Assembly: GCA_001598975.1 (NCBI GenBank) | Contig: BBXU01000414.1 | Coordinates: forward strand, 1 to 32,458 | DNA: 32,458 nucleotides | Reading direction: 5' to 3' | Source: Parachlorella kessleri | Taxonomy: Eukaryota; Chlorophyta; Trebouxiophyceae; Chlorellales; Chlorellaceae | In this document: in pieces, positions 7,577 to 13,889 of the stretch | How positions within the stretch are numbered: position 1 is the stretch's first letter | Layout: each line of letters begins with the position of its first letter | The notes under the pieces: model-generated | Seen by the model: only the letters and a program-made list of their open reading frames with translations | The model's database searches: none | What the model was told of the DNA's origin: nothing | Made by a program: the position numbers and the translations under genes

Positions 7577-10500
7577 GTGGGTGGGCCATGTCATGTGGTG
7601 CTAAAGCTGGCTGGGCACGCTGGGCAGGGCATGGCCACATGCATGGGCTGTTGATTACCAGCATGTAGCGGGAATGCTAAGAACTTGTTCATACATTTTG
7701 AGGTGCATGTCTCAAAGCGCTGCCTCTGCTTGCCGCCTTGCAGCCCCACATCCCCGGGCTACTCCCCCACCAGCCCTGGCTACAGCCCGACCAGGTGAGC
7801 GGCCGCATCACCCTACCCATGCCATGAAAGCCTGCCTGTGGATCTTGGTTGTTGTGTTGATTACTGATAACCTGATTTCCATGGCTTTGGCAAACCCTAT
7901 CATGTGGAGAGCCTATCACCCACGCTGACATGATTCGTTTGTGCCTGGTGCAGCCCTGGCTACAGCCCCACAAGGTGAGGCTGCTGCTGCGTTGCTACTG
8001 GGTCATGAGGAACATTCGTGTGGCTGCACACGATGCTTTCATTGTCTCCATCTGTGTCCTGGGGCAACTTTGACAGCTGACCGTGCGCGGTTGTATGTTG
8101 ACTGATGATATCCTTTCCTGTTCTTGTGTGCAGCCCCGGCTACAGGCAAGGAGATAAGCTTTGGGAGGCCATCTGTGGGCTGCACCATAGCATGACACAG
8201 GCCACACTTGCTGGCCACAGCTGAGCACGTGTTCGGGAGCTTGCTGTGACATTGGATTGCCATCCTGTCAGCTTGCTTGCAGTGCAGCACATTTGCACAG
8301 TTGGCAAGGGCCTCGTGATTGTGCTTTGGTGCCTAAGGTGACTTGTAATTTCCGTTATCGCCTGTCTGACAACCTTGCTGCTGTGCTCTGCTGTTGCAGT
8401 CCGACTAGGTGAGCCTCACACCGGCCAAGGCAAACTTTGCCACGTCATAAATGCTTTTCCTGGCGGGTGCTTCGACAGCTGGGCGCAAGGCAGTGCTGCT
8501 GCTTGCATCCTGCCTACATGCTGCTCTGGTTCCACAGCTTGTGGCTTTTGCGGGTTTGTTCCATTTGCCAGCCTGTGGACGGGTCTTAGCCTGAGAAGCT
8601 TTGCTTACATCAATCTTGATGACACTGCCTAACAACAACTTGTGTGTGGCTGTATCATCCTGGCAGTCCTGGCTACAGCCCCACAAGGTGCGAAGGCTGC
8701 AGTGATGAAAAGACAAGGAGGACAGCTGTTGCTGAGGCTTGGACAGTTTCTCAAGGGGTTGTGGAGGTTGTGGGGATTGGCAAGCATGGTCACCTTTCCC
8801 TACCTTCCAGTATAAACATGGCAGCCTGCGACTGATTTTCACCAGCCTGCAGTGCAAACGACCTGCCGCAGTCCCAATTTGAAGCAAGTTCTCTTTCCCG
8901 TGCTTGCAGCCCGGCGTACAGGTCTGACCGTTGAACGAGAGTACCGGCTTGATGAGGGTGTCAACTGCTGCACGGCTTTGTATTGAACCCTGTTAGGCAT
9001 CTTGTATCAGGCATGGCTTGTGAACTTGAGTCTGTGCCCTGCTTGTACTGCTTTGGATGCTGCTTCGTAGTCATGCTCCATGTGATCCACTGCAACAGTT
9101 TGTGGTGCCTGCAGCCCTACCTCACCTGCCTACTCCCCCACAAGGTAAGCTGTTCCTGGAAAGGTATTTGATGCCTCCTTCTTCTCCTGGGAGGGCTTGG
9201 GCTGGCCCTCACCAGCCTTCCCTATCGCCTGAATCTCATAGCGGCTGTGCTTGCAGCTGTGGCTTGCATGCCTGAACAGGTGGTGGGAGTCTTAGGGCAC
9301 CTGAGTAGGCCTTCCCGTTTCTTACTAACGTGTATTTTTCCTTGCCTATGCAGCCCGGCGTACAGGTAACACTCGCTACCACGCCAAGGCCCTCCTTCGT
9401 TCAAGCCTCACTAAATAGTATCTTGTCTGCTGACGCTTTGCTTTGCTTCTGCCTTGGGTCGGCCTTGTCTGGGTCTCTTGCCTGTTGTCGTCGGCCTTCC
9501 CTTGTCTGCACCTGACGCAGCAGTCAAGCACTAGGTTGTGCTGCCTGCAGTCCGACCAGTCCGGCTTACAGCCCAACGAGCCCGGCCTACAGCCCTACCA
9601 GCCCTGCATACAGGTGCGGTGTTGCCTCCAAGCTCCATTTCTGGTGGCTGTAGCCACTCTCTCTCAATCTCACTAGCTGCTGCATGAGTGTCTCACTGGT
9701 GCACATACACCCGATGTTCAGCCCTGCCTTAGTGATGCTGCTTGGACGAGTCAGAGTTGCTGATTGCCTGGCTTGTGTGTGCTGATGCAGTCCGACGAGG
9801 TGAGCAGGACCCCGGTCCAAGGCTGCTAAATCCCCTGGGTGTTGACTGCTTCCTAGGGTGCAATTCCTTGTTGTGTATGGTGTTTCACACATTGCCCCTT
9901 CCAAAACTCAAAGTGGCTAACTTCAAAACCGTCGTAAGCATTAGGCTCTCCGTTTGTGGCGTACGCGACTTCACACCTGCTGCTGTTGCATTGCTGAGCT
10001 GGCTGGCCTGATGCACTGCAGCCCGGCCTATAGCCCCACGTCTCCTGCATACAGGTGCGACCATTGCATCGAGCTTGAGGTGCATTGTTGTTATTCAATG
10101 GTGTCTGCCCGACGCGCTGGGGCCTGCACTCAGTGCTGTTTGCATGAACAACTTTTGGGGGTGCTCACAACCACTTGCCCACTGACACATGCCATATGTT
10201 TCTCACTAATAGGTGTCCTTTCTGCTTGCAGTCCCACGAGGTGAGCCAGCAATCACGAGCGAGGGGAGCGCAGCGTGTTGCAATCCCTCAATTGGGCTGC
10301 TCGCCCTATCTGCTAGAATTGGTACTAGCAGTGTCATCACACCTTTCTTGCGGGGTTGTGGCCTGCCATGCATGTGCAGCTGGTCTAGCAACAGTGCACC
10401 ACCTTTACTTAGTGGGCCCATAACCCCTTTCCTGACCACTTCCTAATCATGTGGTTCTCCTGTTTGTCTCATGCAGCCCTGCATACTCACCAACAAGGCA

Positions 10501-13500: not shown

Positions 13501-13889
13501 CAGCATGTACCTTGCCAATGGGTTGTGCTACTGGCTGTGCCTGCGATTGCAGCCCTACGCAGCCTACGGGGGTGAGTCCCCAGGGGGCCCCTGGCTACTC
13601 CCCATCAGGCCCTGAGTACTCGCCGTCCGGCCCAGAGTACAGGTCAGTGGCCACAGCTGGTTGATAGGAGGGAGTACCAGTGTCAGAGCAGGGCGGTCAA
13701 GGAATAGCAAGCGTTAATGGGATCCAGCTGGTTGTGGGTTGGCTGCCTGAAACTGTGGGATGTTGGGATGCTGCAGCCAGTGGCTGGTGCTGGTGTCTCC
13801 CAATGGCGCGCCAAGCCTTGAATAATCGGCTGTGGTGCTGGTGCTGCAGCCCAACAAACCCTACCACCTCGCAAGACGGCCCGCAATGA
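180..13889 (+). CDS. RPB1: RNA polymerase II largest subunit RPB1 (5'-truncated by window start)
   Basis: This is the catalytic subunit of nuclear RNA polymerase II, which makes mRNA. The window holds 49 exons that join into one open frame of 1099 complete codons plus a stop; the N-terminal part lies upstream. Recognisable segments in order are the pore/funnel region ([27 protein letters not shown]), the block before the bridge helix ([15 protein letters not shown]), the bridge helix ([20 protein letters not shown]), the trigger loop ([12 protein letters not shown], then [18 protein letters not shown]), the jaw and foot, the conserved block [10 protein letters not shown] / [10 protein letters not shown], and [11 protein letters not shown] before the linker. 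All match RPB1 rather than RPA1 or RPC1, and the heptad CTD settles the choice. Stop codon TGA is at 13887-13889. Exon maps are in the next two entries. Confidence 0.98.
5458..5699 (+). other. GC-AG intron in RPB1 core
   Basis: The upstream exon ends CTTCAG and is followed by GCGAGT. The downstream exon begins GGCATTGAG after an AACCCGCAG acceptor. Splicing here gives ALQ followed by GIEGIRKV, matching the conserved RPB1 segment with no gap. No GT within reach would keep the frame. Confidence 0.85.
8146..8399 (+). other. GC-AG intron between the 12-nt and 9-nt CTD exons
   Basis: The 12-nt exon ends TACAG and is followed by GCAAGG. The acceptor TTGCAG precedes the 9-nt exon TCCGACTAG. Joining the two exons gives one complete heptad, 21 nt in total. 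Confidence 0.85.
10498..10647 (+). other. GC-AG intron in CTD
   Basis: The donor is AAG followed by GCAAGT, a perfect GC-donor consensus. The acceptor is TGTGCAG. The intron splits a heptad Ser5 codon. Confidence 0.88.
11221..11344 (+). other. GC-AG intron in CTD (shortest CTD intron, 124 nt)
   Basis: The donor is AAG followed by GCAAGT and the acceptor is TCTGCAG. The intron splits a Ser5 codon. Confidence 0.88.
11470..11508 (+). repeat. 18-bp tandem direct repeat inside a CTD intron
   Basis: GGCTGTGGCACATCATCC occurs at 11470-11487 and again at 11491-11508, inside the intron 11357-11615. It is a local duplication with no evident function. Confidence 0.8.
11646..11833 (+). other. GC-AG intron in CTD
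   Basis: The donor is GAG followed by GCAAGT and the acceptor is TGTGCAG. The intron splits a Ser5 codon. Confidence 0.88.
12585..12596 (+). pseudogene. CTD-like 12-nt micro-exon relic or optional exon
   Basis: Within the intron 12498-12689 there is a good acceptor (CCCTTGCAG), then CCCCGATAAAGG, then a GTAGCT donor. The layout is that of the real 12-nt CTD exons such as CCCCGGCTACAG, but the Gly/Ala-Tyr-Ser codons are damaged. The flanking exons 12477-12497 and 12690-12710 already join in perfect heptad register without it. Including it would keep the frame but insert non-heptad residues (Ser-Pro-Asp-Lys-Gly). It is either a decayed exon whose 9-nt partner is gone, or chance. Confidence 0.4.
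12711..12881 (+). other. GC-AG intron in CTD
   Basis: The donor is AAG followed by GCAAGC and the acceptor is GCTGCAG. The intron splits a Ser5 codon. Confidence 0.88.

Follow-up and report, generated by a model that had tools for sequence, protein, structure and literature searches.

The DNA analyzed here (the window) is contig C247 of a genome assembly from Parachlorella kessleri, a Chlorella-like green alga of the Chlorellales, bases 1 to 32458, and it holds the 3′ part of the RNA polymerase II (Pol II) gene RPB1. The body of the gene, at 180-7163 on the + strand, has 20 exons of 69 to 206 nt with their introns. It is followed by E0 (7432-7576, +), a linker exon that ends in GGAGY and is the last exon of ordinary size ahead of the C-terminal domain (CTD). 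The CTD itself is divided among 28 exons, E1 to E28, which lie at 7744-13889 and hold 697 coding nt, all where the initial annotation of this DNA had placed them. Joined in a script-checked splice, the body exons, E0, and E1 to E28 give 1099 residues and a stop in a single open frame. As had been claimed, this frame never breaks between the upstream exons and the TGA at 13887-13889, and the heptad register is kept over 28 of 28 junctions. In Pfam, the window protein contains Rpb1 domains 4, 5, 6, and 7 (matches to PF05000, PF04998, PF04992, and PF04990) and the C-terminal repeat, its CTD heptads matching PF05001 with an E value of 7e-41. The assignment of the locus to RNA polymerase II is supported by these domains and the repeat, as well as by the register, the splice sites, and the third-position pattern described below.

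All CTD exons lie on the + strand. The first nine are E1 (7744-7794, 51 nt), E2 (7954-7974, 21 nt; missing in the deposited P. kessleri protein, P0001), E3 (8134-8145, 12 nt, GC donor, followed by an intron that is read through in P0001), E4 (8400-8408, 9 nt), E5 (8667-8687, 21 nt), E6 (8910-8921, 12 nt), E7 (9115-9144, 30 nt), E8 (9354-9365, 12 nt, with the weak donor GTAACA), and E9 (9551-9613, 63 nt), which carries three heptads' worth of sequence without a break. Next come E10 (9791-9799, 9 nt), E11 (10022-10054, 33 nt), E12 (10232-10240, 9 nt), E13 (10477-10497, 21 nt, GC donor), E14 (10648-10659, 12 nt, donor TC|GTGAGT), E15 (10937-10966, 30 nt), E16 (11200-11220, 21 nt, GC donor), E17 (11345-11356, 12 nt), E18 (11616-11645, 30 nt, GC donor), and E19 (11834-11845, 12 nt). 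The remainder are E20 (12026-12046, 21 nt), E21 (12220-12228, 9 nt), E22 (12477-12497, 21 nt), E23 (12690-12710, 21 nt, GC donor), E24 (12882-12893, 12 nt, donor TC|GTGAGT), E25 (13120-13160, 41 nt), after which stands the sole phase-1 intron, E26 (13317-13338, 22 nt), E27 (13553-13642, 90 nt, with degenerate heptads), and E28 (13850-13889, 40 nt), which encodes the C terminus and the stop.

Four of these exons have 9 nt, exactly as first described, seven have 12 nt, and seven have 21 nt; 22 of the 28 are no longer than 30 nt, and in 25 the length is a multiple of 3. The initial annotation had further counted five exons that have at most 9 nt or form 9/12 pairs making one heptad. We find four exons of that size, and E3/E4 is the sole adjacent 12+9 pair that makes a single heptad. 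Eleven CTD exons (9 or 12 nt) are micro-exons of ≤15 nt with splice sites on both sides, namely, a CAG acceptor and a GT or GC donor. The CTD exons have a mean of 25 nt and a median of 21 nt, compared to a mean of 124 nt for the 21 window exons before the CTD, and there are 40 introns per kb of coding sequence in the CTD versus 7.7 in the gene body.

Half of the 28 CTD introns (14) interrupt a Ser2 codon and the other 14 a Ser5 codon, and 27 are in phase 2. Their length is 124 to 277 nt, with a mean of 201 nt, compared to 240 nt for the body introns. Serine codons of the AGT type carry introns more often than AGC codons do (10 of 11 AGT versus 16 of 30 AGC; Fisher p 0.033). Consensus splice sites had been reported at every junction. 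This is true of the acceptors, all 28 of which are CAG, but 5 of the 28 donors are GC, three lack a preceding AG (TTC, CTC, and ATA after E14, E24, and E25), and some are weak. With a scoring matrix derived solely from the 20 introns of the gene body, 0.45% of 884 decoy GTs outscore the median CTD donor, and 0.87% of 807 decoy AGs outscore the median CTD acceptor. One of the 20 body introns, at 5457-5458 (+), also has a GC donor (CAG|GCGAGT); GC-AG introns may thus be no rarity in this alga. Within the intron after E17, at 11470-11512, there is a 21-nt tandem duplication (95% alike) that has the length of a heptad unit but by eye not the sequence of one. The intron after E22 contains a possible cryptic in-frame 12-nt exon, CCCCGATAAAGG (SPDKG; 12585-12596, +), with a fair acceptor and a donor score of −0.3. 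This stretch is probably unused and is perhaps a decayed exon.

The exons together encode 31 Y-led heptads, the first 25 of which are strictly YSPTSP followed by G, A, or S, while the last six deviate. Position 7 is mostly Ala, Gly, or Gln, as in the database proteins P0002, P0003, and P0006. We compared the locus with chance by chaining heptad codons and GT/GC-AG introns through dynamic programming, using 60 dinucleotide shuffles as the control. The true strand scored 141.5, whereas the shuffles had a mean of 4.5 and a maximum of 5.8, the reverse strand scored 5.5, and the introns alone scored 4.3. A chance origin of the heptad chain was therefore rejected. The pattern CAGYCCNACNAGGTRAG occurs nine times in the 50.86-Mb assembly, seven of them in the window, compared to once for the reversed-pattern control. 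The two other exact matches to the 9-nt-exon pattern in the assembly are at C522:24507-24523 (−) and C1419:9590-9606 (+). Across the 25 heptads, first and second codon positions never differ at Y1, P3, T4, and P6, but 56% of comparisons at third positions show a difference; position 7 apart, variation among these predicted heptads is synonymous only. Such free third positions do not arise by construction, and they match expectations for a repeat that is old, translated, and under selection.

Taken together, we believe that this is very probably a functional nuclear RPB1 in which accurate removal of 28 ordinary short spliceosomal introns joins 28 small exons into the CTD. In such a gene, splice sites would be paired across each short intron (intron definition), and the introns would be recognized one by one. 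We infer intron definition because, under established splicing models, exons of 9 to 12 nt are far too short for exon definition. The initial annotation had made the same point about the 9-nt exons, which is reasonable, but exons of this size have precedent among the plant micro-exons of 1 to 15 nt described in the available text of PMC8831610. Since nearly all of the introns follow the AG of an AGC or AGT Ser2/Ser5 codon, splicing from most donors to an acceptor farther downstream would do little harm to the coding sequence. Splicing errors would then mostly alter the number of heptads or half-heptads and keep the frame. Among 378 possible exon skips, 351 hold the frame to the natural stop, 314 yield Ser at the junction, and 142 delete whole heptads. 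Retention of a single intron brings in a stop within that intron in 24 of 28 cases. Skipping should therefore be mild and retention harmful.

Several points weigh against this interpretation. All CTD junctions are known here from genomic DNA alone. Five donors are GC (after E3, E13, E16, E18, and E23), and the two lowest-scoring donors are GTAACA after E8 (1.7) and TTC|GTGAGT after E14 (0.3). In addition, the constancy of the amino acids is in part a matter of construction, because the exons were recognized through their coding heptads. If the gene works as proposed, it is of broader interest, as the domain that coordinates splicing with transcription is itself encoded by about as hard a splicing substrate as can be conceived. 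The locus offers a natural test of the recognition of successive 9- to 12-nt exons, of variation in CTD length by splicing, and of intron multiplication in tandem repeats.

How the introns came to be so numerous is less clear. There is about an even chance, judging from sequence comparisons, that the introns descend from one or a few founders that landed in AG|C serine codons and were duplicated together with their heptads during growth and turnover of the array, the intron sequences diverging afterward. Introns occupy 25 of 52 AG sites in the CTD but 16 of 176 in the body (Fisher p 3.5e-9), although the density of AG is similar (73 per kb in the CTD and 68 per kb in the body). The supply of AG was therefore rejected as the cause, since occupancy is about five times higher in the CTD at an alike density, and this implies that something specific to the repeat array raised the number of introns. 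The data hint weakly at unequal exchange, copying intron-bearing heptads, as the natural cause. Block duplication is favored by an exon order of 21-12-30 nt that recurs three times (p 0.010, with E25 at 41 nt) and by two pairs in which a 21-nt exon with a GC donor precedes a 12-nt exon with TC|GT (E13-E14 and E23-E24; p 0.03). The introns after 9-nt exons are alike (p 0.02; the sole group with an excess) and longer (p 0.013). The p values for block duplication and intron similarity are nominal, each for a single test.

Other observations do not fit such copying well. Aligned introns are essentially unrelated, with a mean z of 0.23 over 378 pairs; two pairs exceed a z of 4, and the best of these (z 5.5) joins introns at unlike positions. 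The TC|GT introns have a z of −0.28, the GC introns a p of 0.11, and six other groups p values of 0.075 to 0.81. The longest repeated run of exon lengths is also unremarkable (p 0.47), and exons of like size do not have significantly similar flanks (p 0.13). Of the first 51 Ser2/Ser5 sites, 25 carry an intron; this occupancy is indistinguishable from random (runs p 0.79), and the sizes of the gaps between occupied sites are near geometric, with no periodicity (p 0.48). With unrelated introns, unlike flanks, and random occupancy, either the copying is old or the introns came independently.

The second option, in which the same functional gene underwent many independent intron gains at AG|Y serine codons, or random losses from a more broken array, is possible but rather doubtful. 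Random occupancy is what independent gain or random loss would also produce, and the near-geometric exon sizes, the lack of overall similarity among introns, the AG that precedes 25 of 28 introns, and the lack of further assembly matches to the CTD region all agree with it. However, target sites alone fail to explain a fivefold CTD occupancy at near-equal AG density, nor do they account for the odd donors common to E13-E14 and E23-E24.

A different proposal concerns use rather than origin. The frame-safe exons could be interchangeable parts of a regulated alternative splicing system, yielding RPB1 with varied heptad numbers and feedback between splicing capacity and the tail. The many in-frame skips described above and the mixed donor strengths, including the five GC donors, are in line with this, and 8 of 27 single-exon skips delete whole heptads. 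The other 19 do not, however, and interchangeability is automatic because the repeats have a common intron phase. Regulated splicing of this kind is thus unlikely. Even more speculative is the idea that the fragmented CTD serves as a self-referential sensor of splicing, in which a full-length tail would be made only if Pol II-coupled splicing removed all 28 introns flanking exons as small as 9 to 12 nt, and heptad number or RPB1 level would track and regulate splicing. If this improbable scheme were true, a drop in splicing capacity would lead to in-frame skipping and shorter tails (or to intron retention and stops), and many Ser2/Ser5 codons would be held as AGY by splicing constraint.

The deposited P. 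kessleri model differs sharply from our reconstruction. P0001 additionally carries PF04997, PF00623, and PF04983, but it has 3 heptads compared to the 31 found here and no match to PF05001. By tblastn, its residues 1530-1546 correspond to E1 and residues 1547-1576 to E3 and the beginning of the GC-AG intron behind it. P0001 thus skips the 21-nt E2 and reads through the intron after E3. Our computed read-through of that intron gave the same tail with one heptad more, because E2 was included. Omission of E2 by the gene predictor is likelier than its absence from the other strain. It is very unlikely that this short form is correct, that is, that the protein ends after about three heptads and that the downstream exons are relics. 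The three heptads and read-through tail of P0001 are what speak for it, but YSPTSP is kept in 25 of 31 heptads despite third-position variation, the tail is explained by the intron read-through and missing E2, and two annotated relatives, P0002 and P0003, carry 30 and 28 heptads. Public annotation therefore misses most of an essential domain, and comparative studies that rely on predicted proteins can wrongly score the CTD as truncated.

The assembly that we searched comprises 50.86 Mb in 1642 contigs, and the RPB1 of C246/C247 is the sole one found in it. The gene's N-terminal half lies on the terminal part of contig C246, where residues 1-662 of the deposited protein occur in order, with residues 289-320 and 571-600 present letter for letter. 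C246 terminates in a poly-G run after a splice donor, and C247 begins ahead of the matching acceptor. Three other loci with Rpb1 domains (on C1583, C1584, and C1530) are 26 to 47% identical to RPB1 where they match. Because this identity is so low, they are different genes, and we took them to be other polymerases; the check covers fetched loci and left out three weak matches that had no locus (one on C332 and two on C1530). There was no second match to the CTD DNA at 7577-13849 in the assembly, in a search that passes over very common words. A silent copy, which the initial annotation had named as grounds for refutation, is unlikely given the lack of a second CTD match, the low identity of the other fetched loci, the presence of residues 1-662 on C246, and the third-position variation. 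An assembly artifact or pseudogene has a negligible chance of being correct. C247 does begin in an RPB1 intron, beside a contig ending in poly-G, but 28 junctions preserve both the register and the splice sites, no second copy was found, and the tail of P0001, which sits on a distinct 4.2-Mb contig rather than the 32-kb C247, is identical to E3 and the first part of the intron after it.

The best database relative of the window protein was “hypothetical protein N2152v2_006082 [Parachlorella kessleri],” with an identity of 100% across 95% of the stretch that was compared. We took the tag N2152v2 to mean strain NIES-2152, version 2. According to PMC4724957, the NIES-2152 genome has a GC content of 58.3% and 7.9 exons per gene, the mean exon length being 176 bp; the GC content of the window is 53 to 62% in 1-kb steps. 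Among other algae, P0002 and P0003 (both Micractinium) have 30 and 28 heptads, and P0004 (Coccomyxa) has 34. P0006, P0007, and P0035 (ena and jgi) have 1607 to 1704 residues on contigs of 32 to 322 kb and carry 17, 30, and 23 heptads, respectively; all three begin at an internal Met or Val and extend into the CTD. P0122 (jgi) has 535 residues and 29 heptads, and its pre-CTD identity is 91% to Micractinium and 81% to P. kessleri. The initial Met of P0122 aligns just behind the start of the body exon at 5349-5457, adjoining a P. kessleri intron. Assuming that these four are single-open-reading-frame (ORF) calls, they seem to have an unbroken CTD within one long ORF. If so, the layout in Parachlorella is either lineage specific or was once more widespread, with mRNA-mediated loss of the introns in other lineages. 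These relatives give indirect support to the statement in the initial annotation that the CTD of other organisms is encoded by one or a few large exons.

In searches for the DNA of relatives, viral contigs gave 15 loci, none of them a close chlorophyte relative (best segment, 45% identity), and the 12-nt-exon pattern had 0 matches there. The 80 loci kept of 567 in the genome-contig search were prokaryotic by title, mostly archaeal. No near-identical CTD fragment was present among the best 120 of 1029 matches.

Elsewhere in the window, a stretch at 28644-28748 (−), within an ORF at 28215-28814, matches UBLCP1 (PDB 3shq; E 8.3e-6). UBLCP1 belongs to a phosphatase family initially described as acting on the Pol II CTD. 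The matching stretch shares its contig with the CTD exons, at a distance of about 15 kb, which is probably a coincidence. An ORF at 30583-31641 (+) has leucine-rich repeats (PF13855) and a match slightly below the cutoff to a NedA-like galactose-binding domain, and 21251-21907 (−) matches a short-chain dehydrogenase (PF00106; E 4.5e-14).

This is a known gene made of known parts, micro-exons and CTD heptads, and what is striking is the gene structure. Searches of the PMC library, some of them limited to the best 15 or 25 papers, brought up no title or abstract on an RPB1 CTD cut into micro-exons, a weak negative, as most subscription papers, including the classic ones on RPB1 gene structure, were outside the scope of the search. 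PMC4362643 has no occurrence of intron, exon, green alga, or chlorophyt. Compared to RPB1 of green plants and algae, the P. kessleri gene has the same Pfam Rpb1 domains and a canonical C-terminal repeat, but here the CTD is cut by 28 introns.

Fibrillar collagen genes have many small exons, of about 45 to 162 nt, in multiples of the repeat unit and with a constant intron phase. The RPB1 CTD is likewise a repeat protein with a constant intron phase; however, many of its exons have 9 to 33 nt, and exon boundaries interrupt serine codons, as many as two in each repeat. The micro-exons of plants (available text of PMC8831610) resemble those described here in that exons of 9 to 12 nt are overlooked by gene predictors. 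According to the same text, they are conserved in land plants with few common to C. reinhardtii, whereas here 11 are found in one domain; “RNA polymerase” is absent from its main text as available. Introners (e.g., PMC9860276) also multiply introns, but the CTD introns have no other genomic match and no shared intron family. With no other match to 7577-13849 in the assembly and introns mutually unrelated overall, an introner origin was rejected. The micro-exon genes (MEGs) of schistosomes (available part of PMC4350168) are similar in having long runs of tiny symmetrical exons that could be skipped without a frameshift. MEGs have most of their coding region in such exons, which in RPB1 holds for the CTD part only. 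MEG products are, by the same source, secreted or membrane anchored, from genes apparently restricted to platyhelminths, whereas in P. kessleri the tiny exons build a domain of an invariant nuclear enzyme.

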